A DNA stretch of 45,169 nt from Lentzea aerocolonigenes (lineage in GTDB: Bacteria; Actinomycetota; Actinomycetes; Mycobacteriales; Pseudonocardiaceae). The stretch is from NCBI RefSeq assembly GCF_000955955.1, contig NZ_JYJG01000162.1:1-45169 (forward strand), written 5' to 3'. Below, in pieces: positions 24,501-43,471 of the stretch. Made by a program: the position numbers and the translations under genes. Every line of letters begins with the position of its first letter. The first letter of the stretch is position 1. The notes beneath the pieces are model-generated. The model was not told the origin of the DNA, ran no database searches, and saw only the letters and a program-made list of their open reading frames with translations.

Positions 24501-26557
24501 AGCACGGACAGGAAGATCTCCGCGCACTGCTCGTGGAACTCCAGGCCGATCTCGATCAGTCCCAGTGCGGCTTCGACCAGATCGGCGACCGGTGTGTCCA
24601 CATCGGACACGGTCCGTTGGAGTGCGGCGACCGCGTGGTCACGGGCTTCGCCGCCGAACGCCGCGAGCACGACGGCGGCACCACGGCGATCGGACCCCGT
24701 CGCGTACGGGTCGCCGAGGACAGAGCGCAGGCCGCGTTCGGCCGCGTCCCGTGCGGTGGATCCGCTGTCCGCCAAGGCTTCCGCCGCGATCAGCCGATGT
24801 TCTGCCGGAGCTGAGGCGTTCTCGACGCCCGCACGCAGGAACGCGATCGCCTCGTTCGCACGCCGGTCGCGCAGCCGCACCGCCAGCGCGGTCGCGGCTT
24901 CCGCGCGTGACTCCCAGGGCGCCTCTTCGTCGTGGAACAGGTCGGCGAGCCAGTCGGCCAGTCCGGGGTGATGAGTGGCTCTGCTGGTTCTGGCCAGGAT
25001 GTTCGCGGCGCGGTACTGGGTGGTCATCGCCCAGCCGCGCACGGTGGTCAGGAACTCGTCGACCACCGGCGCGCTCGCGGGCAGGTGCTTGCAGAGCAGC
25101 CGGGCGGCGATGAGGTGCTGCTCCGAGGTTCCGCCGTGCAGCCGGCGCAGCAGCTCGTCCGCCTGGTCGGGGTGCAGGTGCGTGTAGTGCAGGAGCACCG
25201 CGCGGGCGAAACGGCCCGCCTCCCACGACTTCGCCGCGTGCAGCAGCTCGGCGACGGCCGGGTCCCTGGGGTCGAACTCGGCGGGCAGTTCGCGGGCCTC
25301 TGCCGTCGCCGCCACGTGTTCGGCGAAGCTGTGGTGCAGGAAGGCGAGGTCGCCGCCGCGTTGGACGAACGGTCCCGCGGCGGTGAGGTGGTCGATCAGC
25401 TCGTCGGCGGTGCCCGCGCCGGGGTGACACTCGACCCAGCGCCGCACGGCCGTGCTCAGGGAGACGTCGGAGCGGCGCCTGCTGCGGCCCAGGACTTCGA
25501 CCAGGGCGGTGCGATGGCGTTCGAACGCCGGCGGTGTGGAGCGCGAAGAGGAGATGAATCCCAGGTACGACTCGTAGAGCTGGAACTGGTTGCCGGGCAG
25601 CGGCCGGTCACCGTGCCGTTCGAAGACGATCGCGGCGATGGTGGCCAGCAGCGGTACCGCGACCAGTTCGGTGAGGTGGGCGTCGCGGATCTGGTGCAGG
25701 AACGTGCGAGTCTGGTCCTCGTCGCCGAACCAGCACCCGGCGAACCGGCGCAGCCCCTCCTCGTCGAACGGCAGCAGCTCGTAGCGCATCGCACCGGCGC
25801 GTTGCAGGGCGGAGAGCGCGCCGCCTTCCGCGGGCCTGGTCGTGAGGACGACGCGATACGGGTCCTTGCCCGCCCAAGCGGCCAGGGTGTGCACGATCGC
25901 GGCGCGGGCTTCGGTGTCCGCGACCTCGTCCAGCGCGTCGATCAGCAACAGCCAGCGGTGGCCGGACACGCGCCGGGCGAACAGCGCGGGATCGAGTGGT
26001 CCGGTCAGGTAGCGGCCGTATTCGGCGGAAGCGCTCGTCGCGAGCGTTTCGGAGATCGACTGCCCCAGATGCGTGGCGAGCAGCCGGGCGGGGAGGCGCA
26101 GGGGCACCACGGGTTCCGCGATCGGGGCCTCGCCGGTACAGGACCAGGCCCTGACGATGTCCGCGGTGAGCCGGAGCGTGAGGGTCGACTTTCCCTGGCC
26201 GGGGCCGCCGGTGATCACCAGGTGGTCGTCGTTGTCGAGCGCCGACCGGACCGACTTCGAGGGTGGCCGCACGACCGCCCTCGCGACCGGCGCGACCGGT
26301 GCGTCGACGAGCAGGCCGTGCTCGTCGTAGGCCGGGGCAGGCGGCTGGTCGGCCGGGGCCTCGTCGAGGTCGTTGCCGATGTCCTGGCGCACGTAGACGG
26401 TCCCGAGCGTCGGCCTGCGGGCACCGGGGAGCTGGTACGGCAGGAGGTCCGCGGCCTGCTCCTGGGCCCACATCAGGTCCTTGACCCCGGCCGGCAGGAT
26501 CGTGGCCGATGCCCAGCCGCGGGCTTGGATGCTGAACCTGAGCTCATCCTCCGCCAT
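21570..26557 (-). pseudogene. NACHT-HEAT repeat STAND NTPase, interrupted by an adaptor-like sequence
   Basis: The 5' frame (26557 to 21818) encodes about 1570 residues. Residues 1-100 form a conserved-looking N-terminal region I cannot name. A NACHT domain follows: Walker A GGPGQGKST at 117-125, Walker B LLLIDALDE at 203-211, sensor TTRP at 239-242. From about residue 430 the chain is a long array of HEAT-like repeats of 30-40 residues. At 21830-21847 an 18-base Tn5 mosaic-end sequence appears; after it the repeats continue in another frame to the stop at 21570 (from AVIPELSAIADDAG to LILKLRGR). The interruption is most likely an assembly artefact, so the gene itself is probably intact. NACHT proteins of bacteria include antiphage sensors; HEAT arrays usually serve as the recognition surface. 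No effector enzyme domain is visible, so defence is plausible but unproven. Confidence 0.85.
21829..21847. other. Tn5/Nextera mosaic-end sequence inside the NACHT-HEAT gene
   Basis: GATGTGTATAAGAGACAG at 21830-21847 is identical to 18 bases of the 19-base hyperactive Tn5 mosaic end used in tagmentation libraries; the remaining base at 21829 differs (G rather than A). There is no transposase, no second end and no 9-bp target duplication around it. It breaks the reading frame of a repeat protein. It is best read as a library-adaptor remnant or chimeric junction. Confidence 0.92.
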
Positions 26558-26608: not shown

Positions 26609-28216
26609 TCACGCGCCTGCCAGGGCACCTACCACGTGGATCACGGTGGGGCGGTCGGCGGTGAAGGCCTTGCGCAGGGCTGTGGCGAACTTGTCCTCGT
26701 CGTCCACGGTCAGGCCGTGGCAGTTGAGGCCCTTGGCGACCTTGGCGAAGTCGATGCCCGGGAGGGTGACGCCGTGGACGGGTTCGCTGCGGTCGGCCAT
26801 CTCTCTGCGGATCTCGCCGTAGCCGCCGTTGTCGGCGATGATCACGGGCAGGGGCAGGCGTTCCTGGGCCGCGGTGGCGAGTTCGGGGAGGGTGAACATC
26901 ACGCCGCCGTCGCCGTGCAGGGCTATGACCTGACGGTCCGGGGCGCCCATCTTGGCGCCGATGGCCGCCGGGAGGCCGTAGCCGAGGGTGCCGAAGCCCG
27001 TCGGGTACAGGAAACTGGCCGGGGCTTCGAGGGGCAGGTTGGACAAAGTGCCGTAGTAGCAGGCCATTGCGCTGTCGGCGGCGACGATGGCGCCTGGGGA
27101 CAGGACTTCCTGCATTGCTTCGATCAGTGGAAGCCATGGAGCGCCTTGGGTTCTGGCGTGTTTGCGGAAGAGCCTCTGCCAGCGTTCGGCGCGTTTCACC
27201 GCTTCCTCGTTGGGTTTGGTCTTGCCGAGGCGTTGGTTGAGGGCGGTGACGGTGGCCTGGGCGTCGCCGACGAGGCGGTAGTCCGGGAGGGCGTTGGTGA
27301 TCATCTGCGCTGGGTCGACGTCGATGCGGATCAGGTCGCCGGAGAACTTCAGCGGGCCGTTCCAGAGGTCGGTGGAGGCCAGTTCGGTGCCGATGGCGAG
27401 GACGACGTCGCATTCGGCGACGAACTCGGCCACCGCCTTGTGGTGCAGGCCCGCGCCGATGGAGAGCTGGTGGCGTTCGGAGAAGGTGCCTTTGCCGTTG
27501 GCGGTGGCGACGACCGGGGCGCCGAGGCGTTCGGCGAGGGCGGTGATCTCCTCGGCCGCGCCCTTCGCGCCGCCGCCGATGATCAGGCCGGGGTGGGTGG
27601 CCGCGTTGAGACGGCCTGCCGCGGCGGCGATGGTGACGGCGTCGGCCGGTGGGTGGGCGACGATGACCGGGGCCACCTCGTTGACCTTCTCGAGGGCGTC
27701 GACGAGGTCGAGCGGGATCTCCAGGTGGGCCGGGCGGGGGCGGCCGGATGTCATGTGCGCGAAGGCTTGTGCGACCGCGAGGGGGATTTCGGCGACGCTG
27801 TGGACGCGGTTCGAGTAGCCGATGACGGCTTCGAGCGCGGCACTCAGGTGGCGGGCCTCGTGGAGGGTGCCGTTGCCGCGGCCGGGGTGCCGCAGCGGCA
27901 TGCCCGGCGAGATGAGCAGGACCGGCACGGAGTCGGAGTACGCCTGGGTCACCGCCGTCATGGCGTTGAGCACCGCCGGGCCGCTCGTGGTGAGGCAGAC
28001 GCCGGGTCTGCCGGTGACGCGGGCGTAGCCGTCGGCGGCGAAACCGGCGCCCTGCTCGTGGCGCGGCGTGACGTGCTTGACGTCGTGCTCGGCCAGGGCG
28101 CGGTAGATGCCGAGGTTGTGGGTGCCGGGGATGCCGAACACCAGCTCGGTGCCGTGCGCGACGAGTGCGCGCACCAGGGCGTCACCCCCGCTCATGCGAG
28201 GAACGGTCATGCTCAT
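26609..28216 (-). CDS. Thiamine-diphosphate-dependent enzyme (acetolactate synthase-like)
   Basis: 535 residues with the three-domain layout of ThDP enzymes. The cofactor-activating Glu is in RHEQGAGFAADGYAR near residue 50; the Mg/ThDP motif starts GDGGVMFTLPELA at 435 and ends with ADNGGYGEI near 461-469. It resembles acetolactate-synthase-like proteins including 5-guanidino-2-oxopentanoate decarboxylases, so it may decarboxylate a 2-oxo acid derived from an amino acid instead of making acetolactate. ATG 28216 overlaps the stop of the acyl-CoA synthetase gene by 4 bp (ATGA), so it is translationally coupled as the third gene of the operon starting at 31389. Confidence 0.87.
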   Translation of the reverse strand: MSMTVPRMSGGDALVRALVAHGTELVFGIPGTHNLGIYRALAEHDVKHVTPRHEQGAGFAADGYARVTGRPGVCLTTSGPAVLNAMTAVTQAYSDSVPVLLISPGMPLRHPGRGNGTLHEARHLSAALEAVIGYSNRVHSVAEIPLAVAQAFAHMTSGRPRPAHLEIPLDLVDALEKVNEVAPVIVAHPPADAVTIAAAAGRLNAATHPGLIIGGGAKGAAEEITALAERLGAPVVATANGKGTFSERHQLSIGAGLHHKAVAEFVAECDVVLAIGTELASTDLWNGPLKFSGDLIRIDVDPAQMITNALPDYRLVGDAQATVTALNQRLGKTKPNEEAVKRAERWQRLFRKHARTQGAPWLPLIEAMQEVLSPGAIVAADSAMACYYGTLSNLPLEAPASFLYPTGFGTLGYGLPAAIGAKMGAPDRQVIALHGDGGVMFTLPELATAAQERLPLPVIIADNGGYGEIRREMADRSEPVHGVTLPGIDFAKVAKGLNCHGLTVDDEDKFATALRKAFTADRPTVIHVVGALAGA

Positions 28217-30240
28217 GCCACGCGGCGTCCGCTCGTGTCGTTCAACGTGTCCCCCGAAGGGATGATCAGCGCGTCGACGGCCAGCACGCCGTCAGGGCCC
28301 ACGCGCACGGGGTTCAGCTCGATCTCCGCCAGGTCCGGTCTGGCCACGAGCGTCTCGGAGATCTGGGCGATCACCTGGGCCAACGCTGCCACGTCCACGG
28401 GTGGTGCGCCACGCCGGCCGGACAGGAGCGGGGCGGTCATGAGGCGTGCCAGCATGTCCCGCGCTGTGGCGGGAGTCACGGGCGCGAGCTCGATCGCGGT
28501 GTCCTTGAACAACTCTGCGTGGATGCCGCCCGCCCCCACGAGAATCACTGGGCCGAACGAGTGATCGCGTTTCGCGCCGATGATCAGCTCGACCGCGTGC
28601 TCGCGCGTGTCCATCTCCTCGAGGACGTAGGTGCCGGGGCCGAGCCTCGACTCCATCTCCTCGAACGCCGCGGCCGGGTCGGCGAGGTTGATCTTCACGC
28701 CGCCGTGCTCGCTCTTGTGGGCCAGCCAGTCGGCCTTGAGCGCGTACGGCCCGCGCAGGGTGGTGGCCTCGACGTCGGCCAGGCTGGTGACCGCGTGCGC
28801 CTCGGGGAATCTGACGAAGCTCAGCAGCTCGCGGGCGGCGAGATAGCCCGGCTGGTACGGCAGGCTCGCGCAGGGGTCCCCTCCGAAGGGGTCCCCTGAT
28901 TCAATTCTCCCAGGCAGCACCGACAATTCCGGGCCGCTCGCGGGGCCGACGAGCGGGCGAGAGAGCGCGCCGAACCGGGCAGCGTCGCCCAGCGCAGCCA
29001 CAGCTCGCTCGATCGTGTGCTGCACGGGCACGCCACCCGCCCGCAACGCCCGCACCGCAGCGGAGTCCGCGCACATGCTGTGCACGGTCACCAAGACGCC
29101 TGTTTCCCTTGCCAGAGCACAGATCGAGGCCGCGACCGACACCTCGGCGGACTCCAGCGACGGCGTGTCCGCTCCATAGCTGCCGAAGTACCCGGACAAC
29201 ACGATGGTGTCGACCTCGCCCCCGTGCACCAGAGCCGAGACCGCGCGGGTGTAGTTCGCCATGTCCTGCTCCCCCGCGCCGGCGAGGTCGATCGGGTTCC
29301 GCCCGGAGGACAACCCCGGCACCGAAAGTCCAGCGGCCACCGCGAGATCCGCCGCGATCGCCCCCTGGCCGCCCGAGTCGGAGATGATCCCGGCCCGGCG
29401 CCCGCGCGGAATCCCGGACTTCACAACAGCGGCGAGGTCCACCAGTGCGGCAGGCGTCGAAACCCGCACCGCACCAGCACGGCGACAGGCCGCGTCCACA
29501 ACGTCCGAAGAGGACGTCAACGCTCCGGTGTGTGACAGGGCGGCTTCCTGGGCAGCGGCGGACGATCCGACGGTCAGCAACACCACCGGTTTCCCGGCCG
29601 CTCGCAAGGACGACATCGCCGCGATGGTCCCCGGCCCGAAGCTCTCCAGGTACACCCCGACGACCGCGGTCATGTCGTGGGAAACCAGTTCCAGCAACGC
29701 TTCCGTCGCCGTCACGTCAGCCTGGTTGCCGACCGACACGAACCGCGACACCCCGATGCCCGACGCCGCCGCGAGCCCTGCGATCTCCAGCCCGACCTGC
29801 CCGCTCTGCGACACCACGCCCAACGAGCCGGGCTGGAACTGCCCCCACGCGAGGTGCAACGACGTCGCCGCGTCGAACACCCCCAGGCAGTTCGGCCCGA
29901 GCAGACGCGCCCCGGCCTCGCGAATCCGGCCGATCACCCCTTCGTCGATGCCCGAGGTGATGCCGACGAACCCGCGCACACCAACGGCCAGAGCCTCGTC
30001 CACCACCGCGGGCACAACAGCGGCAGGCACGGCCAAGACCACCAGCTCGGGCGCCTCAGGCAGTTCCGACAAGGACCGGACCGTCGGATGTGAGAGAACC
30101 GAGCCACCACTGCGGTTCACGAGGTGCACGGCCCGCCGGTCAAGGCCGGCCAACGCACCGCGCGCGAGCCAGTGGCCCCACTTGGCGGGGTCGTCGCTGG
30201 CACCTACGACCGCGACGGACGCGGGGTCGGAGAAGATCAT
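28213..30240 (-). CDS. NDP-forming acyl-CoA synthetase (acetate-CoA ligase family)
   Basis: 675 residues. Domains in order: CoA-binding Rossmann domain (MIFSDPASVAVVGASDDPAKWG, GPNCLGV), ligase-CoA domains with the phosphohistidine region (LSHTGALTSSSDVVDAACRRAGA), and a C-terminal ATP-grasp domain (LKADWLAHKSEHGGVKINL, VILVGAGGIHAELFKD, EIELNPVRV). It would make or break an acyl-CoA with phosphate and ADP/ATP. The ATG at 30240 overlaps the dehydrogenase stop by 4 bp (ATGA) and its own stop overlaps the next start in the same way. A linker near residues 448-456 is encoded by two copies of AGGGGTCCCCT. Confidence 0.92.
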   Translation of the reverse strand: MIFSDPASVAVVGASDDPAKWGHWLARGALAGLDRRAVHLVNRSGGSVLSHPTVRSLSELPEAPELVVLAVPAAVVPAVVDEALAVGVRGFVGITSGIDEGVIGRIREAGARLLGPNCLGVFDAATSLHLAWGQFQPGSLGVVSQSGQVGLEIAGLAAASGIGVSRFVSVGNQADVTATEALLELVSHDMTAVVGVYLESFGPGTIAAMSSLRAAGKPVVLLTVGSSAAAQEAALSHTGALTSSSDVVDAACRRAGAVRVSTPAALVDLAAVVKSGIPRGRRAGIISDSGGQGAIAADLAVAAGLSVPGLSSGRNPIDLAGAGEQDMANYTRAVSALVHGGEVDTIVLSGYFGSYGADTPSLESAEVSVAASICALARETGVLVTVHSMCADSAAVRALRAGGVPVQHTIERAVAALGDAARFGALSRPLVGPASGPELSVLPGRIESGDPFGGDPCASLPYQPGYLAARELLSFVRFPEAHAVTSLADVEATTLRGPYALKADWLAHKSEHGGVKINLADPAAAFEEMESRLGPGTYVLEEMDTREHAVELIIGAKRDHSFGPVILVGAGGIHAELFKDTAIELAPVTPATARDMLARLMTAPLLSGRRGAPPVDVAALAQVIAQISETLVARPDLAEIELNPVRVGPDGVLAVDALIIPSGDTLNDTSGRRVA
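28872..28897. repeat. Two copies of a palindromic 11-mer inside the acyl-CoA synthetase gene
   Basis: AGGGGTCCCCT occurs at 28872-28882 and 28887-28897, each copy being its own inverted repeat. It encodes the DP-containing linker between the CoA-ligase part and the ATP-grasp domain, so it is tolerated within the open frame. Confidence 0.6.
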
Positions 30241-31389
30241 CTCGCACCGAGGCCGCGGGAGATGACGAGGCGCTGGATGTCCGAGGTGCCTTCCTCGATC
30301 TCCTCGAGCTTGGCGTCGCGCATCCACCGCTCGACCGGGTACTCGCGCGAGTAGCCGTAGCCGCCCAGGGTCTGCACCGCGGCGTGCGTGCACCACATGG
30401 CGTTCTCGGAGCCGACGAGCTTGGCCATCGCGGACTCCTGCGCCACCGCGTGCCCCTCGTCGTACAACGCGGCCGCGCGCACGGGTGTCGACGCGGGTGG
30501 CCATGTCCGCGAGCCGGAACGCCACCGCCTGGTGCTGGATGATCGGCACGCCGAACTGCTGCCGTTCGCGCGCGTAGTCAGCAGCGAAGTCGAGAGCGGC
30601 GCGCGCCAGACCGGTGGTGGCAGCGCCGATGAGGATGCGCGACGCGTCGAACGTGCGCATCAGCCCGGCGAACCCCTGGCCCTCGTCGCCGAGCCGGTTC
30701 TCGACCGGCACCCGCACGTCGTCGAGGAACACCTCGGCGTTGACGATCGCGCGCTGGCCCATCTTCTGGAACGGCGGTCCGACCGTGAGCCCGGCCGTCT
30801 CCCGGGGCACGACGAACGCGGTCACCCCACGAGACCGCTTCGACGGGTCCACGGTCGCGAAGATCACGAACGTCGAGGCGTACGGCGCGTTGGAGATCCA
30901 GGTCTTCTGTCCGTTGAGGACGTACTCGGAGCCTTCGCGTCGCGCCGACGTCTGGATGCCCGCCGCGTCCGACCCGCTGCCGGGCTCGGTGACGGCGACG
31001 GCGGTGAGCGGCGGTGCTTGCGTCCCCAGTGGACTGAGGAAACGTTCCTGCTGCTCAGGCGTGCCGAGGTGCTCGATCGGCGCGCTGAAGAAGCCGTTGG
31101 ACGTGATCAGGTTGCCGATGCCGATGTCGCCGTGGCACAACTCCTGCTGGACGAGCACCTGGGTGAGCAGGTCGGTGACGCCACCGCCGCCGAACTTCTC
31201 CGGGATCATGAAGCTGGTCAGCCCGAGCCGGGACGCCTTCTCCCACACGTCGAGCGGCGACTCGGTGTCGGCCTCGTCGACGGCACGCCCCCGCGGACGG
31301 ATCTCCCTGGCGGCGAACTCGCGGGCCAGCTCGACGAACTGCTCCTGTTCGGCCGTGAGCCGCAGGCCGTCCCTGACGGTCCGCCCCAT
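30237..31389 (-). pseudogene. Acyl-CoA dehydrogenase, frameshifted near 30482
   Basis: FAD flavoprotein that introduces a 2,3 double bond into an acyl-CoA. The 5' frame (31389 to about 30485) gives the N-terminal and middle domains (AVTEPGSGSDAAGI, GQKTWISNAPYA, FGVPIIQHQAVAFRLADMATRV). The 3' frame (30482 to 30237) gives the rest, including LGGYGYSREYPVERWMRDAK and the catalytic-loop EEIEEGTSDIQRL. Between LADMA and RAA the family normally has about 11 residues; here 19 nt remain where 33 would be expected, consistent with loss of 14 nt. It may be a real mutation or an assembly error. The ribosome site AGGAGTGCGAG precedes ATG 31389, and a TetR-type operator lies 17 nt upstream. Confidence 0.85.
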
Positions 31390-32653: not shown

Positions 32654-33052
32654 CTATTCTGCGGATTTCGGAGCGACGACCGTGCCACGAGCACGGGTTA
32701 CGACGATCGGCGCAGCCAGCACGTCGGCCGCGGAAGGTCCGCGTTCGGGCGCCGACCGGCACACCACGCGCGCCTCGAACTCGATCTCACGCGAGCGCTT
32801 TCCGATGCGCACCAACGTCGCCGTGGCCTCGACGACGTCGCCGGCCTGGATGGGTGCCGCGAACTCGACCGAGCTGTACCCCGCGAACAGCCCCTCGTCC
32901 GAGTCCGTGTGGATCAGCAGCTCGGTGGCGACGTCACCGAACATGCCGAGCCCGTAGGCACCGTCGACCAGGTTGCCGCCGTAGTGCGCGTGCGAGTGCG
33001 GCACGTAACGGCGGTGCGTCACCTGAAAACCTTCGACCAAAGCCCCGCTCAC
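32654..33052 (-). CDS. kal: 3-aminobutyryl-CoA ammonia-lyase
   Basis: 132-residue hotdog-fold enzyme that eliminates ammonia from 3-aminobutyryl-CoA to give crotonyl-CoA, the last step of the 3,5-diaminohexanoate pathway of lysine degradation. The segment [24 protein letters not shown] and the stretch [15 protein letters not shown] match Kal closely. GTG start overlaps the kamE stop by 4 bp (GTGA). Family assignment rests on these motifs and on the neighbours kamE, kamD and kdd, which fit the same pathway. Confidence 0.9.
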
Positions 33053-33792
33053 GCGGCGACCCCCTTCTTCTCCTGCATCGCGTGCACCAGGTAGCTCGCG
33101 ACCTCACCCGGCGTGGTGCCGCGTGAGAAGACCCTGTCCACCCCTAGTTCCCCTGCCATCAGGGGATCGAACCGCGGTCCGCCCGCGACGAGCAGCGGCC
33201 GCTTGTCCCCCATCGCCTCGCGGAACGCCGCGGACATCTCCTGCGTGTTCAGGATGTGCGCGTCCCGTTGCGTGACGACCTGCGAGATCAGCACCGCGTC
33301 GGCCTTCTCCGCACGGGCGCTGCGCACCAGTTCCGGGACGCTCACCTGCGCGCCGAGGTTCACGACCTTCAGCTCGCGGTAGTACTCCAGGCCCTTCTCG
33401 CCCGCGAAGCCCTTGATGTTGAGGATCGCGTCGATGCCCACGGTGTGCGCGTCGGTGCCGATGCAGCCGCCGACGACGACCAGCTTGCGCCGCAACACCT
33501 TCTTCAGCGTGGTGTTGACCTCGGACGGGGTCAGCAGCGGGTACTCGCGCTCGACGACCTTGACGTCGTCCATGTCCACGATGTGCTTGACCGAGCCGTA
33601 GACGACGAAGAACGTGAAGTCGTCGCCGATCGGGTGCGAGTGGACCACCATGGCGGGGTCCATGCCCATCTTGTTCGCGAGCTGCTGCGCCGCGCCGTCC
33701 GCCTTGGGGCCGAAGGGAATCGGCAGCGTGAACGACGTCTGGACCATGCCGTCGCCGGTGGTGTCGCCGTACGGCCTCACATACCTGCTCAT
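33049..33792 (-). CDS. kamE: Lysine 5,6-aminomutase beta subunit
   Basis: 247-residue adenosylcobalamin-binding subunit. With KamD it moves the terminal amino group of beta-lysine (or D-lysine) to the neighbouring carbon, giving 3,5-diaminohexanoate. The cobalamin base-off motif DAHTVG is present in [16 protein letters not shown], followed by a B12-domain pattern ending [22 protein letters not shown] 33792 overlaps the kamD stop by 4 bp (ATGA). The enzyme needs PLP and adenosylcobalamin. The dedicated reactivating proteins found in clostridia are not in the window. Confidence 0.93.
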
Positions 33793-35357
33793 GCTTGGGC
33801 CTCCAGCATGTCGCTCGCCGGGTTGAAGTACGCCTCTGCCTTCTCGATGACGCCGTCCGCGCCCTTGCCCTTGTCCGCTGGGCGCTTCATGAGGCCGAAC
33901 GTGCCGTCCGCGATCGCGTTCAGCAGGCCGTCGTCCACGATGCGCTCCAGCAGATCCACTGCCTCGCCCAGAACCTGGTGGGCGCGCTTGACGATCAAGC
34001 CGTCCGGGGCCGGCCGGAAGTCCTCGGCGAGGCTGCCGGCCGCGTTCAGCACGTACCGGACGTTCTGGAGCGCGAGGTCGCGGTCGGACAGGAACGGCGT
34101 CACGACGGCTTCCGTCATCATGCCGACGAGCAGAATGGACTGTCCTGTCAGGACGCCTGCGAGGTTGAAGAACCCGTCCAGCAGGTAGCCGTTGAAGACG
34201 TCGCCCGTCATGTGCTTGGTGGGCGGCATCCACTTCAGCGGTGCGTCCGGGAAGAGTTCGCGGGCCAGCAGCGCGTGGGCGAGTTCGAGCCGGAACGAGT
34301 CGGGCACCCTCGGGTTGATCTCGAAGGCGTGACCGAGGCCCAGCAGGTGGTCGGGCAGTCCCGCCTCGTGGGCGAAGTGCTCGTTCAGGAGCTGGCTGAC
34401 CGTGACGGTGTGCGCGGCGTCGACGGCGTCCGCGGTGGTGAGGTAGTTGTCCTCGCCGGTGTTGATGATGATTCCCGCGCGGGCGTGGACCTGGCGGGAG
34501 AAGCGCTGGTCGACGAACGTGCGGATCGGGTTGATGTCGCGGAACAGAATCCCGTACATCGAGTCGTTCAGCATCATGTCGAGCCGCTGAAGGCCGGCCA
34601 GCACAGCGATTTCCGGCATGCACAGGCCGGACGCGTAGTTGGTCAGCCGCACGTACCGGCCGACCTCCTTCGACACGTCGTCGAGCGCGGCCCGCATGAT
34701 GCGGAAGTTCTCCTGGGTGGCGTACGTGCCCGCGAACCCGTGGTGCGTGGCGCCTTCCGGAACGTAGTCGAGCAGGCTTTGGCCGGTCGAGCGGATCACC
34801 GCGATGATGTCAGCGCCTGCCCGGGCCGCGTTCTGGGCCTGCACGACGTCTTCGTCGATGTCGCCGGTCGCGACGATCAGGTAGATCCACGGCCGCTGCG
34901 CCGGATCTCCCCACTTGGCGACGAGCTTGTCGCGCTGGACCCGGTTGCGGTCGACCGTCTTGAGGCCCTTGGCGACGGCGGAGGTGGCAGCCTTCCTGGC
35001 GGCCGTCAGCTCCTTGCCAGTGGGGATCTTGAACTGGATCTGGCCCGCCGCGGTGGCTTCCGCGAGCTCGGTGAGGCTGCCGAGGTTGTGTTCTTTCAGG
35101 GCCTGGAAAGCCGGGAGCACCACGCCGTGCTCCAGCCCGCACTGCTCGCGGACCGTGTCGATCACGCGGTTGACCCACGGCACGTCACCGGCGCGGTGGG
35201 TGGAGTCCGCGCCGGTGATGCCGGCCAGGCGAAGCGTGGCGCGCTCGACGGCGACGGTGGTGTGCGCCTTCGCGATGGACACCACCGGTTCCGCCGCCCG
35301 CGCCGCGAGTCCGCGCGCGGTGGCGACGACCTTGGGGTCGAGGTCGAGCAACGCCAT
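33789..35357 (-). CDS. kamD: Lysine 5,6-aminomutase alpha subunit
   Basis: 522-residue catalytic TIM-barrel subunit of the B12- and PLP-dependent aminomutase. Conserved stretches include DVPWVNRVIDTV near the N-terminus, LIVATGDIDEDVVQAQNAARAG, RSTGQSLLDYVPEG, GTYATQENFRIMR and PPTKHMTGDVFNGYLLD. Length matches clostridial KamD. ATG 35357 has the ribosome site AGGAAGTGA, which contains the stop codon of the upstream amidohydrolase gene. It is coupled to kamE. Confidence 0.94.
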   Translation of the reverse strand: MALLDLDPKVVATARGLAARAAEPVVSIAKAHTTVAVERATLRLAGITGADSTHRAGDVPWVNRVIDTVREQCGLEHGVVLPAFQALKEHNLGSLTELAEATAAGQIQFKIPTGKELTAARKAATSAVAKGLKTVDRNRVQRDKLVAKWGDPAQRPWIYLIVATGDIDEDVVQAQNAARAGADIIAVIRSTGQSLLDYVPEGATHHGFAGTYATQENFRIMRAALDDVSKEVGRYVRLTNYASGLCMPEIAVLAGLQRLDMMLNDSMYGILFRDINPIRTFVDQRFSRQVHARAGIIINTGEDNYLTTADAVDAAHTVTVSQLLNEHFAHEAGLPDHLLGLGHAFEINPRVPDSFRLELAHALLARELFPDAPLKWMPPTKHMTGDVFNGYLLDGFFNLAGVLTGQSILLVGMMTEAVVTPFLSDRDLALQNVRYVLNAAGSLAEDFRPAPDGLIVKRAHQVLGEAVDLLERIVDDGLLNAIADGTFGLMKRPADKGKGADGVIEKAEAYFNPASDMLEAQA

Positions 35358-36900: not shown

Positions 36901-37911
36901 TCACGCAGTCTGCCGTTGCTCGAACAACGCGCGCACACCCGGCTGGGTCCGGACCAGGTCCAACGCGAACGCGGCGTGACCAGGCACATACCCGTTGCCG
37001 ACCAGCATCTCCACGTCGGCGGCGAGACCTTCGGCGCCGAGAGCCGCCGCGCTGAACGAGGTGGCCATGGAGAAGAAGATCACGGTGCCGCCGTCGCCGG
37101 TAGCGAGGATGGCGCCGTGCTCGCACCCCGGCACGTCCACACACACGACCGTGACATCAACCTGCTTGCCGACCGCTTCGGCCACGGCGACGGGGTTGCG
37201 TGCGTCCGCGATGACGACCTCGTCAGCGAGGCCTGCCTTGCGGACCTGCTCGGCTTCCTTTTCGGTGGGGACGAGTGCGACAAGACGCGTCGCACCGGCC
37301 TGACGTGCGGCCGCGAGAGAGAGCGAACCGGACTTGCCACCACCGCCGAGCACCAGCACGGACCCGCCGGGGTGCTGGCGGACCACTCGATCGGTCAACG
37401 CCGGCGCCCCGCACACGTCCAGCACGGACAGCGCCAGCTCGTTGGGCATGTCCTCCGGGAGCACGGCCGCGATGGACCGTCCGAACAACACCGCGGTGCC
37501 CCGGCACGGCACCTGCTCGTCCTCGCCGTCCCAGTCCTGCAGGCCGTCGTTGATCTTCAGCGGCGTCAGCGTGAGGCTGACCAGCGTCGCGATCCGGTCG
37601 CCCGCCTTGAGGCCGAGCGGTGACTCCGGGCCGACTTCGAGGACCGTGCCGAGCAGCATGCCGCCAGAGCCGGTGACCGGGTTCTGCATCTTGCCGCGCT
37701 CGGAAACGATGTCGAGCACGGCCTGCCGAACCGCGTCACCGCTGCCGTGCTGCTCCCTGAGCTGCCGGAACGACGCAGCGTCCAGGTTGAGCCGCTCGAC
37801 CGCGACGATCACCTCGTCGGCCGCGGGGACGGGTTCCGCGTCCAGCCGCCACGCCTGCTGCGGCAGCACACCCGCGGGCTCGAGGACGCGGTGCAGTCCG
37901 TACGCGCTCAC
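36901..37911 (-). CDS. kdd: L-erythro-3,5-diaminohexanoate dehydrogenase
   Basis: 336 residues. NAD(P)-dependent enzyme that oxidatively deaminates 3,5-diaminohexanoate to 5-amino-3-oxohexanoate. The N-terminus (VSAYGLHRVLEPAGVLPQQAW), KMQNPVTGSGGMLLGTV, the Rossmann loop VLVLGGGGKSGSLSLAA and FFSMATSFSAAALGAEG match the Kdd family. GTG 37911 begins the conserved region; the frame is open to 38007 without support. It is the first gene of the operon kdd, amidohydrolase, kamD, kamE, kal. Palindromes lie in the 70 bp upstream. Confidence 0.92.
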   Translation of the reverse strand: MSAYGLHRVLEPAGVLPQQAWRLDAEPVPAADEVIVAVERLNLDAASFRQLREQHGSGDAVRQAVLDIVSERGKMQNPVTGSGGMLLGTVLEVGPESPLGLKAGDRIATLVSLTLTPLKINDGLQDWDGEDEQVPCRGTAVLFGRSIAAVLPEDMPNELALSVLDVCGAPALTDRVVRQHPGGSVLVLGGGGKSGSLSLAAARQAGATRLVALVPTEKEAEQVRKAGLADEVVIADARNPVAVAEAVGKQVDVTVVCVDVPGCEHGAILATGDGGTVIFFSMATSFSAAALGAEGLAADVEMLVGNGYVPGHAAFALDLVRTQPGVRALFEQRQTA

Positions 37912-37942
37912 CTGAAAATCCTTCGGTCGACGACGCTGTCTC

Positions 37943-37981: not shown

Positions 37982-40900
37982 TCACTTGACAAGTCGTGTG
38001 ACCACACCGGAACCGCGATCGGTGCCGAACCGGTCGCCGACCTCCAGCACCACGGGGACGTTCAGCGACAACGCGACCAGGGCGGCACCTTCCGGCACAT
38101 CCGCGGAGCCGAGATCCACAAGCTTCGCGTCCACGCGCACCCCGCGCAGGACCAGCTGGGTGTCCGCCGGAGGCAACGGCAGCATCAGGAACGCCTGGAT
38201 CTCCTGGCACATCCGCGTCGTGCCCGGCGCCGCCACCACCTGGACGGGCTTGAACTCGTGCCAGTTGGGTGCGGGAAGCACCACGCGCACCAGGTCGCCC
38301 GCGAACGCGGTGGTCACCAGCTCATCGGCCAACTTGATCGCGGAAACCCCGACCGTGGTGGCGCCGGCGCCCTGACCTCTCAGCTCAACGACGTCGTCCA
38401 CACTCACCTGGCCTCGCACGATCCGCCCGGTGAACTCCGGCGGTTCACCCGCAGCGACGTCGGTCCTGGCAACCGGCATCAAGAACGGCCGGTCGCGAAC
38501 GGCCGGTACGTCGTGGTCCAGCACCGGCACCAGCCCGCGCACGTCGTCCAGACTCGTGAGCCGGACCACAGCCGAGTGCTCGAACGCGAGCTCGGCCGCC
38601 AGTTCTTCCAGGTCCGCGAGGAGCAGGTCGTCCTGACCGGGTCCGACGACGGCGAATACGACCGCGCGCACCCCGACCTTGGCGGCCACCAGCAGCTGTT
38701 CCTCGCCCTGGTCGGTCACACCGTCGTCCGCGCCGACGATCATCAGCGCGCAGTCAGGCCGCCAGGCCCCCGAGACGAGGTAACGCAGACGCTCCTCGTG
38801 TTGCGCGCAGTCCACATGCGCGAAGCGCCGTGAGTAGACGGCATACCGGTGGACGACTCCCGGAGCAGCCATCTCCGAGCGGCCTTCCTGCAACACGCAG
38901 AACACCTTGGCGACCGTCTGGTCGCCGTCCACGTCCGCGCCGAGCGAAATGAGCACCGTTTCCGCGGGCTGACGCTGTTGCACGGCGGCCAGCAGACTGA
39001 TGGCGCCGCTGTGGTCCGGTTGCAACCGCAGCGCGTACTCGGCCAGGTCCCGTTCGTCGCTGCCCCGTTCGAGCCACCGCCTCCCGGTTTCAACGAGCAG
39101 ATCCGCGCAGAGCCGCAAGGCGACGTCGTGTCGCTCGGCGACCCGCACCACGAGCTTCACGTTCGTGGTGAACTCGACCAGAGGCAGGACACCGTCGCCG
39201 CCATCAGGTGGGTTCATGCGGAGTGCGGTCAGGGTGCGATCGATCAGATCGGGGCCGAAGCTGTCGTGGATCAGATCCCGGACGAGCGCTCGCACGACCA
39301 GATGGACCGCGAGCCAGCGACCCGCTGAGGACAGCAGCGACACCCGGTGCAGAGCGCGAACCGCGTTGTCGAAGCTGTGCGCGTCCACGTCCAGGATCCC
39401 CAGCACCACCTCCCGGTCGAGCGGGAACGCGGTCATCGCCAGCACCTTCAGCAGATCGGACGTGACTCGGTCGAAGGAGTCGACCGGGCCGAGAACGTTC
39501 CTGAGCTCCGGATGAAGGGACGTTCCGCGCTCCTCGAGCAGCGTTCGGTACGCGACTGCGGACGCCCCGGTCTGGCGCATGTACGCACCGGCGAGAGACA
39601 GCGCGAGCGGGAGGTGGCCGAGCTTCCTCGCGATGTCGCGGAGGACGTCGAGATCTCCCGGCCCGAGCAGCGAGAGCGAGTCGTCGCCGAACATCGCCGG
39701 CACCTCGATCACCGTGCCGTACTCGGCCCAGTCCGGATCGGTCGAGGTGATCAGCACATCGCCTCCGCCAACGCCAGGAAGCCGATCGAGCAAGGTGTGC
39801 GGGCTGCCGGCGCCGTCGAAGACGAGCAGCCACCGTCCGCGCGCGGTGAGGCTCTGGATCGCCTGCTCCGGCGCCACCTGCAACGCCCTGGCCAGCCTCG
39901 CGACGTCTTCGTCCAAGGTGTCCGCACGGAGGATCCAGATCACCTCGTACGCGCTGGTGTGTGCCTCGGCGTAGGTGCGCGCGAGGGTCGTCTTGCCGCC
40001 ACCGCTGATGCCGACCAGAGCACAGATCGTCGGCCTGCCCACCGCTGCCGTGGCGAAGCACTTCTCGATCTGGCGCTGAAGAGCCGGACGGGGCACCTCG
40101 ACGAGTCGTGCCACCGGAACGTTGTCGATCGCCGAGCCGGTGCCGGGAAACGCGCCCGCGGTCTTGACCTCTGTCAACGGGAGGTCGAGCCGGCGGGCGA
40201 GGCGGGCCCGTGCCGTCGCCTGGTCCAGGTCGAGCAGGCTGGTCATCGGCTGATCGGCGAGCGACGCCGGAAGCTCGGTCCGTTGCACCATCACGAAGAC
40301 GACCACGAGGCGCGCCGCGATCGCCGCCGCCAGCGACCGCTGTGTGCGTTCGTCGGTGAGAGCGGCGGGCGACACGAGCAGGATCATCCGGCTGTGGGCC
40401 TCGAACCCGCCGATGTCCGGATCGGCCACGGACACCCCCGCTCCGAGCCCAGTCAGCTGGGAGGCCACCCACTCGCCCCACCTTGTGTCCTCCGCCGCGT
40501 AGCTGAGCAGCAGGTCCGTGCGCGAAGCAGCGGCGACCGTCGCGGTCGAGTCCACCGTGGACACGGCCTTCACGAACGACACGTAGCGTTCCATGTCGAC
40601 GCCCACGAAAGTGTCCCGCTCCGAGATCTTCAGCGACAGCAACGACCTGAGCGCCGGGTACAGCTCGGAGAACCGCTTCACCTGTTCCACCAGCACCAGG
40701 TCCGGCTCGTCCCGTTCCAGCACTGCGGGTGTGCGGTAGGCCTCTTCCAGCCGTGCGAGCAACGTGTGGTCGTCCACCACTGCCCGGTACACCTGCCGGT
40801 ACTGCGCCTGGATCACGACGAGTTTCGCGAGCACGGGCGGCACCACGCCGTCAGCGAACTCCTTGAGCAGGCTAAAGGCCTGGACGCTGCGCTTGATCCG

Positions 40901-41938
40901 GCGCGGGTTGTAGGGCGGGCTACCGCGCAGGACAGGCACGCAGTCGTGCACGTCGACGTCGTCCGACAGCGACCGGATGAAGTCCTCCACCCGTGTCTCG
41001 GCGGCAGGCGGCAGCGAGTACGGCAGCTGCACGACCTTCTCGAAATAGGTCTCCCCCAGCTCGCGTCCACCTGCGTGCAGGTCCTTGTACTTCACCGCGA
41101 TCGCGTGCTCGATGATCTCCCGGTCGACCGCGAGCAGGAAGACGCAGCCGGGTTCGTCCAGCACGAGCTTCACGGTCTCGACGATCTGCAGCGTCTGCTC
41201 CGGCAGGCACCTGTCGAGATCGTCGATGATGACCACCAACGGCTTCGACGCGTGCACCACGTCCAGCACGCCGCGGAACTCCCGGTTGAAGTCGTCGAGC
41301 AGCGCGCTCTGTTCGCGGTGGGCCTGGCTGCGGCGGAACTTCGAGAGGTCCGCGCCGAGCTTGATGTCGAAGAGCTTGAGCAGCGCGTCCGGTTTGGCGC
41401 CCAGCCCCGCGAACAACGCGACGAGAACCCGGACGACGGGTGAACTGAAGATCGGGTTCGCTGCGAGGGAGTTCGCCACGGGGTTCGATGGCACGGGCAC
41501 CAGGCTGATCGCCATCAGGATGAGCACCGCGAGTAACGCTACCCGGAACAGCAGCACGAACGTCTTGCGGCAGACCTCCCAGGCACCTGCCCTGAAGTCG
41601 ATCGACTTCCACCAGATCCGCAGGCGCGCCCACGGACGGCGGTACCAGGGCACAGACAGCTTCGATTCGGTGATGATCCGCTCGATCAGGGCAGACCAGA
41701 GGTTCTCCTCGCGGACGTACTTCCAGGCGTTGAACCAGATCGGCTTGATGCCGCGAGCCCGCAACGCCTGGTCGACCATCATCAGGAAACTGGTCTTGCC
41801 GCTGCCCCACTCGCCGTACACGCCGATGGTCCAGGGCGTGCCCGCGCGGTTGGTTGCGCTGATCCTCGTCGCCAGCGGTACCGCGAACTGGTCGAAGCCG
41901 AGCTTGTCGTCGGCGGTCGGCTGATCGGGAACCGGCAT
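37982..41938 (-). CDS. KAP / TIR-like / NB-ARC / EF-Tu-like multi-domain STAND protein
   Basis: 1318 residues. In order: KAP-type P-loop NTPase (Walker A GEWGSGKT at 42-49, Walker B VVIIDDLDRC at 225-234) with inserted membrane segments at about 126-148 and 167-180; a TIR-like domain at about 473-580 (TDLLLSYAAEDTRWGEWVASQL, then SRMILLVSP); an NB-ARC NTPase with Walker A GISGGGKTT at 633-641, Walker B LLVFDG at 704-709 and GHLPLAL at 774-780; a winged-helix and helical region to about 990; and an EF-Tu-like module at about 993-1318. In the last part RRFAHVDCAQHEE matches the EF-Tu switch II region but the three GTP-binding motifs are lost (see findings). KAP and NB-ARC proteins act as membrane or cytoplasmic switches in bacterial conflict systems. 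The gene starts 30 nt after the GH13 gene, same strand. Function is inferred. Confidence 0.88.
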   Translation of the reverse strand: MPVPDQPTADDKLGFDQFAVPLATRISATNRAGTPWTIGVYGEWGSGKTSFLMMVDQALRARGIKPIWFNAWKYVREENLWSALIERIITESKLSVPWYRRPWARLRIWWKSIDFRAGAWEVCRKTFVLLFRVALLAVLILMAISLVPVPSNPVANSLAANPIFSSPVVRVLVALFAGLGAKPDALLKLFDIKLGADLSKFRRSQAHREQSALLDDFNREFRGVLDVVHASKPLVVIIDDLDRCLPEQTLQIVETVKLVLDEPGCVFLLAVDREIIEHAIAVKYKDLHAGGRELGETYFEKVVQLPYSLPPAAETRVEDFIRSLSDDVDVHDCVPVLRGSPPYNPRRIKRSVQAFSLLKEFADGVVPPVLAKLVVIQAQYRQVYRAVVDDHTLLARLEEAYRTPAVLERDEPDLVLVEQVKRFSELYPALRSLLSLKISERDTFVGVDMERYVSFVKAVSTVDSTATVAAASRTDLLLSYAAEDTRWGEWVASQLTGLGAGVSVADPDIGGFEAHSRMILLVSPAALTDERTQRSLAAAIAARLVVVFVMVQRTELPASLADQPMTSLLDLDQATARARLARRLDLPLTEVKTAGAFPGTGSAIDNVPVARLVEVPRPALQRQIEKCFATAAVGRPTICALVGISGGGKTTLARTYAEAHTSAYEVIWILRADTLDEDVARLARALQVAPEQAIQSLTARGRWLLVFDGAGSPHTLLDRLPGVGGGDVLITSTDPDWAEYGTVIEVPAMFGDDSLSLLGPGDLDVLRDIARKLGHLPLALSLAGAYMRQTGASAVAYRTLLEERGTSLHPELRNVLGPVDSFDRVTSDLLKVLAMTAFPLDREVVLGILDVDAHSFDNAVRALHRVSLLSSAGRWLAVHLVVRALVRDLIHDSFGPDLIDRTLTALRMNPPDGGDGVLPLVEFTTNVKLVVRVAERHDVALRLCADLLVETGRRWLERGSDERDLAEYALRLQPDHSGAISLLAAVQQRQPAETVLISLGADVDGDQTVAKVFCVLQEGRSEMAAPGVVHRYAVYSRRFAHVDCAQHEERLRYLVSGAWRPDCALMIVGADDGVTDQGEEQLLVAAKVGVRAVVFAVVGPGQDDLLLADLEELAAELAFEHSAVVRLTSLDDVRGLVPVLDHDVPAVRDRPFLMPVARTDVAAGEPPEFTGRIVRGQVSVDDVVELRGQGAGATTVGVSAIKLADELVTTAFAGDLVRVVLPAPNWHEFKPVQVVAAPGTTRMCQEIQAFLMLPLPPADTQLVLRGVRVDAKLVDLGSADVPEGAALVALSLNVPVVLEVGDRFGTDRGSGVVTRLVK

Positions 41939-41968
41939 GCTCGTTTGTCGCCAGCCGACCGCCTTTCG

Positions 41969-43471
41969 CTACTGCAGGCGGAACCAGCGGCAGTCGTACG
42001 GCGCGAGATCGACCTTGGCACCGCTCTTCGCGGGCCTCACCCGCTTGCCGGTCAGCAGGTCCGTGAGCACGCCTTCCGCCGGGATCCTCACGGTGATCTC
42101 CCTGTTCGCGAGGTTGTGCGCGGCGATCACGGTGCCGCCGTCGCAGTCCGCGCGATGGGCGAACACGGTCGGGTCACCCGCGTCGAGGACCTGGAAGTCG
42201 CCCCACGCGAGTTCGGGGCACTCCCGGTAGAGCTGGATGAGCTGGCGCATCCAGGTCAGCAACGACTCGGGGTCGTGGCGTTGCTCCTTCGCGGCCTCCC
42301 AGTCCATCGGCACGCGCACCGCCAGCCTGCCTTCCAGCTTCAGGTCTTCCTTCAGACCGATTTCTTCTCCGTAGAACAGCACCGGCGTGCCCGGCAGCGT
42401 GAACAGCAGGCTGTAGACCATGCGGATGCGGCGCTGGTCGTCCTTCAGCATGCCCGGCAGCCGTCGGCGCAGACCGCGGCCGTAGAGCTGCATCGACGGG
42501 TCCGGGCCGAACGCGTCGAAGACCTCCTGGCGTTCGTCCTCCGGCAGTTTGTCGAGGGTCAGTTCGTCGTGGTTGCGGACGAACGTCGCCCAGTGTCCGT
42601 CGCGCGGCGGCTGCGGGCGTTCCTGCAACGCCTTGACCAGCGGTCCGCTCGACTGCCGCGCCAACGCCAGGTACATCGCCTGCATGCCCACGAAGTCGAA
42701 GCACATCGTCAGCTCGTCGCCGACGCCCTGGCCGTAGTAGGCCATCGTGTCCTTGTACGGCAGGTTCACCTCGCCCAGCAGCACGCCCTCGCCGTTGCGG
42801 CGGTTGAGGAACGCGCGCAGGTCGGTGAGGTAGTCGTGCGGGTCGGGCAGCGAGAGGGCGTCCGTGGGGTCGTTGTGCTCCAGCAGGAACGGGACGGCGT
42901 CGACGCGGAAGCCGCTCAGGCCCAGTTCCATCCAGAAGCCCATGATCCGGGCGATCTCGTCGCGGACCTCCGGGTTCGAGACGTTCAGGTCGGGCTGGTG
43001 CTTGTAGAAGCGGTGCAGGTAGTACTTGCCGACCTCTTCGGAGTACTGCCAGAGGCTGTTCTCCTTGTCCGGGAACGTGATCCCCTGCGGGCCGTCGGTC
43101 TGGGGCTCGTCGGCCCAGACGTACCAGTCGCGCTTCTCGGGGTCGTGGAACCACGGGTGCTGGTCCGAGGTGTGGTTGACGACGAGGTCCGCGATGACGC
43201 GCATGCCCCGGTCGCGTGCCGCGCGAACGAACTCCACGAAGTCACCCAATGACCCGAGGCGCGGGTCCACGCCGTAGAAATCCGTGATGTCGTAGCCGTC
43301 GTCGCGTTCGGGCGTGGGATAGAACGGCATCAGCCACACACACGTGACCCCTAGTGCGTGGAGGTGGTCGATGCGTTCGGTGGCGCCTTTGAAACCGTTG
43401 TCGGAGAAGGTCTCCACGTCGAGGCAGTAGAGAACGGCGTTCTTCCACCAGACGTCTGACGTGCGGATCAT
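41969..43471 (-). CDS. GH13 alpha-amylase/trehalose-synthase-like enzyme
   Basis: 500 residues with the GH13 barrel: opening DVWWKNAVLYCLDVETFSD, VVNHTSDQHPWF, nucleophile Asp in GFRVDAVPF, acid/base Glu in LGEVN, transition-state Asp in RNHDELTLD, and a C-terminal beta domain ending DLAPYDCRWFRLQ. It resembles the TreS branch (maltose to trehalose isomerase) but is shorter than TreS and could be a glucan or sucrose-type hydrolase. ATG overlaps the LLM oxidoreductase stop by 4 bp (43468-43471), so the two are translationally coupled. This pair is typical of actinomycete genomes. Confidence 0.9.
   Translation of the reverse strand: MIRTSDVWWKNAVLYCLDVETFSDNGFKGATERIDHLHALGVTCVWLMPFYPTPERDDGYDITDFYGVDPRLGSLGDFVEFVRAARDRGMRVIADLVVNHTSDQHPWFHDPEKRDWYVWADEPQTDGPQGITFPDKENSLWQYSEEVGKYYLHRFYKHQPDLNVSNPEVRDEIARIMGFWMELGLSGFRVDAVPFLLEHNDPTDALSLPDPHDYLTDLRAFLNRRNGEGVLLGEVNLPYKDTMAYYGQGVGDELTMCFDFVGMQAMYLALARQSSGPLVKALQERPQPPRDGHWATFVRNHDELTLDKLPEDERQEVFDAFGPDPSMQLYGRGLRRRLPGMLKDDQRRIRMVYSLLFTLPGTPVLFYGEEIGLKEDLKLEGRLAVRVPMDWEAAKEQRHDPESLLTWMRQLIQLYRECPELAWGDFQVLDAGDPTVFAHRADCDGGTVIAAHNLANREITVRIPAEGVLTDLLTGKRVRPAKSGAKVDLAPYDCRWFRLQ

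Follow-up and report, generated by a model that had tools for sequence, protein, structure and literature searches.

Why should a bacterial protein laid out like a nucleotide-binding leucine-rich repeat (NLR) receptor end in an elongation factor Tu (EF-Tu) fold devoid of GTP-binding motifs? The question arises in a stretch of 45,169 nucleotides from Lentzea aerocolonigenes (contig NZ_JYJG01000162.1, assembly GCF_000955955.1), referred to here as the window, whose coordinates are used throughout; all features described below lie on its minus strand. The receptor gene (37982..41938, ATG to TGA) was delimited from the open reading frame listing and from full-length homologues and encodes 1318 amino acids, arranged as a KAP NTPase, a TIR-like domain, an NB-ARC switch, and a C-terminal EF-Tu-like module termed pseudo-EF-Tu. 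A sequence-only reading had already proposed one frame of this length with two P-loop NTPases, a TIR-like domain between them, and an EF-Tu-like C-terminus; this layout was matched by Pfam, NCBIfam, and EF-Tu structures, and the single frame was retained and assigned to the minus strand, on which that reading was silent (the plus strand contains four stops in the 37982-41938 frame). The analogy to NLRs drawn there also held, with KAP in the effector position, an NB-ARC of the CED-4/resistosome fold, and a variable C-terminal module. The protein is interpreted, with about even confidence, as a single-gene NLR-type conflict receptor, putatively and most likely anti-phage, with an integrated host-protein decoy.

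Structure prediction and the fold search revealed a three-domain EF-Tu fold at residues 991-1318 (37985..38968), in agreement with the resemblance noted before. Domain I covers about residues 991-1150 (38489..38968; structural match, with the boundary set by alignment with EF-Tu of the genus), domain II about 1151-1243 (38210..38488; absent in the alignments from the short and bridge forms), and domain III about 1244-1318 (37985..38209). The solved EF-Tu chains matched this part, with 7vmx_B (M. tuberculosis by title) at the top (1.6e-21), and the fold matches include solved complexes of EF-Tu and CdiA, Tse6, or Q-beta replicase. The NCBIfam EF-Tu models cover residues 1032-1249 with a best E value of 1.7e-20 and scores far below their own full-length cut-offs. 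Where an EF-Tu of the same genome (L002) reads GHIDHGKT, the pseudo-EF-Tu has a degenerate P-loop without lysine, GADVDGDQT (residues 1000-1008, 38915..38941; register set by eye and by structural match, this stretch being mis-registered by MAFFT). Both GTP-binding motifs of EF-Tu, GHxDHGKT and NKxD, are lost, the latter seen as the missing NKAD. The positions of the domain III loops GGRHT and GG/TV, which we take to be tRNA contacts of EF-Tu, are gapped in at least five of the six long forms. Taken together, the motif comparisons and the predicted model show the C-terminus to be a complete EF-Tu fold without GTP-binding motifs or these two loops. Counted from EF-Tu position 71 on, 41 of the 175 aligned positions conserved in both EF-Tu types found in the genus are retained in at least five of the six long forms. 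Hydrophobic residues, Gly, and Pro account for 35 of these 41, against 111 of all 175 (Fisher p 8e-4). By this alignment count, the core of the EF-Tu fold is preserved and its canonical working surfaces mostly are not. A host-protein-derived domain with its activity motifs lost, one of the marks of an integrated-decoy receptor, is thus present.

The genome has two EF-Tu genes, L005 (G000:C449) and L002 (G000:C294), of which one reads HVDCPGH and the other HVDMPGH, and EF-Tu matches of both kinds recur elsewhere in the genus. The corresponding pseudo-EF-Tu motif, HVDCAQH, is closer to HVDCPGH; overall identity favours neither type. A kept cleavage site of the Lit type (EF-Tu G59-I60) was considered and dropped, the alignment there being too poor for a claim; roughly at this place, P0001-P0006 read by eye G-V, G-V, G-T, D-T, G-V, and G-M.

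The region preceding the pseudo-EF-Tu is an NB-ARC/STAND switch comprising a CED-4-like nucleotide-binding and winged-helix part (residues 596-939, 39122..40153). Its predicted model shows the CED-4/resistosome fold, with the P-loop and winged-helix arrangement of the Apaf-1/CED-4 class. In the P-loop GISGGGKT (residues 643-650, 39989..40012), G643, G646, G648, and K649 are invariant in a 15-sequence alignment. The region was matched by Pfam AAA_16 (619-700, E 2.9e-11) and nSTAND5 (616-737, E 9.7e-9); the NB-ARC model itself reached no better than E 0.04 here, against 1.3e-12 in the relative P0018. The constant N-terminal and variable C-terminal modules of an NLR-type switch protein were both found, with roles that we infer.

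The KAP family P-loop NTPase domain (residues 16-328, 40955..41893; Pfam KAP_NTPase E 7.5e-39) gave partial PADLOC matches to QatA (1.2e-35), PDC-S20 (6e-30), and PifA (5.3e-27), and missed the NCBIfam equivalog cut-off for QatA (141.1 bits vs 600). It contains the features expected of a KAP NTPase, namely Walker A GEWGSGKT (residues 42-49, 41792..41815; invariant from G42 to K48 across the 15 aligned sequences), Walker B VVIIDDLDRC (residues 235-244, 41207..41236; V235 and I237-C244 invariant, V236 nearly so), and an inserted membrane segment. Membrane segments had been proposed for this part, and Kyte-Doolittle hydropathy bore out a strong one at residues 122-155 (41474..41575; highest 19-residue mean 2.79), followed by a weaker one at 158-181. 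Since the insertion of membrane helices into the P-loop domain is a trait of the KAP family, these segments are not unusual by themselves.

Between the two NTPases, a TIR-like domain (residues 478-570, 40229..40507) was matched by Pfam TIR_2 (E 2.6e-8, 34.8 bits, cut-off 28), and strands and helices are present there in the predicted model; the 50 PDB fold matches listed were all EF-Tu or NB-ARC and included no TIR chain, which is not evidence of absence. The catalytic glutamate of TIR NADases is absent, its position being occupied by Ser, and Glu was found in four of the 32 aligned family members (P0004, P0018, P0025, and P0030, with a shaky register in P0025); P0033 and P0034 were left out of this alignment because they have no TIR segment. 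The mechanism favoured by the sequence-only reading, in which a TIR NADase depletes NAD after sensing on the EF-Tu side, can draw on the TIR_2 match and on the four relatives with Glu; the Ser in this protein and the rarity of Glu in the family speak against such an executioner here, which was set aside, and leave this mechanism very improbable. In this protein, the TIR-like domain most probably serves as a catalytically dead adaptor.

The survey of homologues and their neighbourhoods yielded full-length homologues on other contigs (P0002, P0003, and P0005, with 88%, 77%, and 65% identity) and a fixed site between amylase and dehydrogenase genes, with homologous genes at the same site in three other genomes. 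A joining of separate genes, raised beforehand as a possible flaw, or a chance resemblance is refuted by these independent homologues and has practically no probability left. Over the conserved KAP N-terminus, TPR or WD40 replaces the EF-Tu module in several relatives, and the pseudo-EF-Tu part diverges faster than KAP (compared with domain II taken as 1132-1222 and domain III as 1223-1318, bounds that differ from the final ones). The proposal that the C-terminal module senses is therefore favoured indirectly, by its variation among relatives, its derivation from a dead EF-Tu, and its faster divergence. A separate EF-Tu-type match was found in P0112. Two region searches for the pseudo-EF-Tu fused to other proteins returned five proteins and one, queries included; they were not exhaustive, since the first missed P0004 and P0006, both of which carry the EF-Tu domain. 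When an EF-Tu-domain profile was run on 396 actinobacterial genomes with at most five candidates scored per genome, the window's protein was the only long frame among the matches listed, the others being frames of 352-736 amino acids. In a drawn sample of 397 genomes of the order (two candidates scored per genome), which seemingly leaves outside the other three genomes with an occupied site, the whole protein was matched at E<=1e-50 in its own genome only.

The fixed site is marked upstream by an alpha-amylase family gene (41969..43471; Pfam and genus search) and downstream by a zinc-dehydrogenase-like gene (36901..37917, with a start codon chosen by us; ADH_zinc_N E 2.5e-6, 27.9 bits, under the cut-off). 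These flanks are present in all 24 genomes of the genus, and a KAP-TIR-NB-ARC gene lies between them in four, G000 (that of the window), G022, G008, and G014. The site is empty in 19 genomes, with flank matches 76-87 bp apart, and in G019 the flank matches are on different contigs. The four receptor genes are mutually 45-47% identical, except for G008 and G014 (93%), and the flanking genes of G022, G008, and G014 are 86-97% identical to those of the window. Both the long and the short C-terminal profiles match G000, G008, and G014. A 30-bp leader separates the amylase gene from the receptor start (41939..41968), similar-looking leaders occur in G022, G008, and G014, and downstream of the receptor stop codon the sequence resumes as in the empty sites. 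The empty site of G011 (L068) has CCCGGATTGTCAAGTGATGCTTGCGG after the amylase stop, with a single mismatch in 26 bases to the terminal part of the G008 gene (T-R-I-V-K-stop and onward), and is read from this match as a deletion scar of the receptor gene. On the flank tree, the occupied state requires at least three changes when G019 is treated as empty. The leaders, the continuity after the stop, the G011 remnant, and the flank tree indicate a fixed locus from which the gene was lost at least in one lineage; in other lineages, loss or exchange took place, and the locus is one of extreme allelic divergence. Where the site is empty in G002 and G013, the amylase frame closes with IVE-stop, which is similar to the IVK-stop of the receptor and possibly a fusion left by deletion. 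Extreme allelic divergence at a fixed locus is seen for immune receptors, and plant NLRs with integrated decoys display both presence/absence and allelic diversity.

This distribution also bears on the idea that the module is a translation-state or antibiotic sensor, reading EF-Ts, the ribosomal stalk, a Balon-like hibernation factor, or an EF-Tu-targeting antibiotic, with NB-ARC passing the signal to a developmental or death decision. Actinomycetes make EF-Tu-binding antibiotics, and the fold search matched complexes of EF-Tu and Balon, EF-Ts, or GE2270A. The nucleotide motifs and the two domain III loops are lost, however, and a patchy presence in four of 24 genomes with about 45% identity between most alleles is unlike a housekeeping sensor, which makes this idea rather unlikely. 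The sensing of tRNA by the pseudo-EF-Tu was set aside because the presumed tRNA-contact loops are gapped and because domain II is absent in nine of 15 forms (a set without P0015, of 931 aa, P0016, of 853 aa, and P0008, in which no EF-Tu match was obtained at E<=1e-3).

For the reading as a decoy receptor, the following course is proposed; beyond the presence of the parts, its steps are ones that we infer. In the resting state, NB-ARC would keep the molecule closed, and the pseudo-EF-Tu would be exposed at the opposite end. An invader protein whose effect on EF-Tu is binding, cleavage, or modification would act on the decoy instead, and this contact would open NB-ARC. The opened molecules might then form a ring, like CED-4 and plant resistosomes, and the clustered membrane KAP domains would act, by membrane damage or another KAP output, so that the infected cell is stopped. 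The pseudo-EF-Tu would thus serve as bait, NB-ARC as switch, membrane KAP as output, and the TIR-like part as adaptor. A wider proposal is offered tentatively and with less than even confidence: EF-Tu was copied into the receptor, inactivated, and diversified, with loss of domain II, giving at one fixed locus an allelic series that betrays EF-Tu-touching invaders, and integrated-decoy immunity was invented independently by bacteria and plants.

Several observations weigh against the decoy. Six of the 64 polar or charged conserved EF-Tu positions are retained, which speaks against a faithful mimic, as a faithful decoy should keep the recognised surface. The absence of domain II from nine of 15 forms means that a ligand requiring this domain cannot be common to all. 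The Pfam GTP_EFTU match (residues 1034-1095, E 1.4e-5, 25.2 bits) is by itself below its cut-off of 26.5, and the AlphaFold 2 conformations hint weakly at a GDP-like form of the pseudo-EF-Tu. The G022 protein fits the short-form profile (8.3e-18) and gives no match to the long-form profile at E <= 10. The ratios of nonsynonymous to synonymous substitution (dN/dS), estimated from one close pair with few changes (G008 v G014), were 0.16 for KAP, 0.17 for TIR, 0.60 for NB-ARC, and 0.71 for the helical part; the values of 0.37 and 0.39 for EF-Tu domains I and III indicate constraint and not positive selection. On the flank tree, the occupied state shows no more clustering than shuffled states do (about 90 of 500 shuffles were as low), and the receptor gene may have been gained by exchange. 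The nearest annotated neighbours are metabolic genes by Pfam and not a defence island. The lost surface residues and the missing domain II, together with the TPR or WD40 found at the same position in several relatives, would suit an EF-Tu fold captured once as a generic, fast-changing binding scaffold for ligands unrelated to EF-Tu, that is, a receptor without a decoy. We consider this possible and somewhat unlikely, since the EF-Tu core and the pairing of domains I and III are maintained over deep divergence and the proposal gives no explanation for EF-Tu as a good scaffold.

Under the preferred reading as a decoy receptor, a molecule with its presumed target built in as an inactive copy makes any shared binder of EF-Tu and the domain a candidate trigger; sensed ligands are known for few bacterial NLR-like proteins. 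The nested series of whole EF-Tu, EF-Tu without domain II, and TPR represents a natural experiment in sensor change. If the reading is true, EF-Tu is a hidden front line between actinomycetes and phages or rivals, and bacteria evolved on their own the integrated-decoy recognition that characterises plant NLRs.

Elsewhere in the window, a second NLR-like protein (21821-26557, 1579 aa) contains a NACHT domain at residues 113-280 (E 3.8e-7) and a weak PADLOC match to GajB (E 0.009). A single frame at 28216-31389 combines acyl-CoA dehydrogenase with CoA-binding, succinyl-CoA-ligase-like, and ATP-grasp domains, and two overlapping frames at 33052-35357 encode D-lysine 5,6-aminomutase alpha and ornithine-aminomutase dimerisation/B12-binding domains. 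No qatBCD-like gene was seen among the neighbours scanned with Pfam.

The sequence-only reading knew of no described system with this exact architecture, and none was found among the open-access literature matches listed, nor was any bacterial NLR carrying an EF-Tu domain; the search did not extend to subscription journals or to the bulk of preprints. The word EF-Tu is absent from the main text of PMC7159879, PMC8195603, and PMC10907252. The receptor shares STAND and TIR-like modules and variable sensor parts with the NTP-dependent conflict systems of multicellular bacteria (excerpts of PMC7159879 and PMC8195603), for which KAP is named as a replacement NTPase (excerpt of PMC8195603). The cut-off of the FxSxx-COOH TPR protein class NF040586 was missed (124.6 vs 300 bits, best stretch 632-809), and no Avs model of PADLOC was listed for this protein at E<=1. 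The actinomycete KAP-(TIR)-NB-ARC-TPR proteins P0018 and P0020-P0030 have the same N-terminal part (36-43% identity over 57-75% of the query) and carry TPR where the pseudo-EF-Tu stands here. The KAP NTPase domain is shared with the anti-phage KAP-type proteins PifA of the F plasmid and QatA (excerpt of PMC9712102; PMC13279940), whose matches span only parts of the KAP region; T7 escapes PifA through mutants of its major capsid protein (excerpt of PMC9712102). In the exclusion of T4, the Gol region of the major capsid protein attaches to domains II and III of EF-Tu, with a preference for the open GDP form, and induces Lit to cleave EF-Tu (excerpt of PMC3014915). As in the course proposed here, EF-Tu serves as the point of contact, in that case for a region of the phage capsid, and the response is suicidal; Lit, in contrast, is a protease with the real EF-Tu as its substrate, and neither an NLR nor a decoy figures in that excerpt. 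The protein bNACHT25 senses phage through the host DnaJ, and a guard-like model was proposed for it (excerpt of PMC12169576). It resembles the present receptor as a bacterial NLR-related protein proposed to sense via a host protein, and differs, as far as that excerpt goes, in being a NACHT protein with a separate DnaJ, whereas the host-protein copy is built into the receptor here. As far as seen, the combination is new, and its kinds are known, the bacterial STAND receptor on the one hand and the integrated decoy from plants on the other. Plant NLRs with integrated domains (excerpt of PMC5067614) likewise join an NB-ARC switch to a host-protein-derived domain; the present receptor differs from them in being bacterial, in having the essential translation factor EF-Tu integrated, and in carrying KAP in the effector position.

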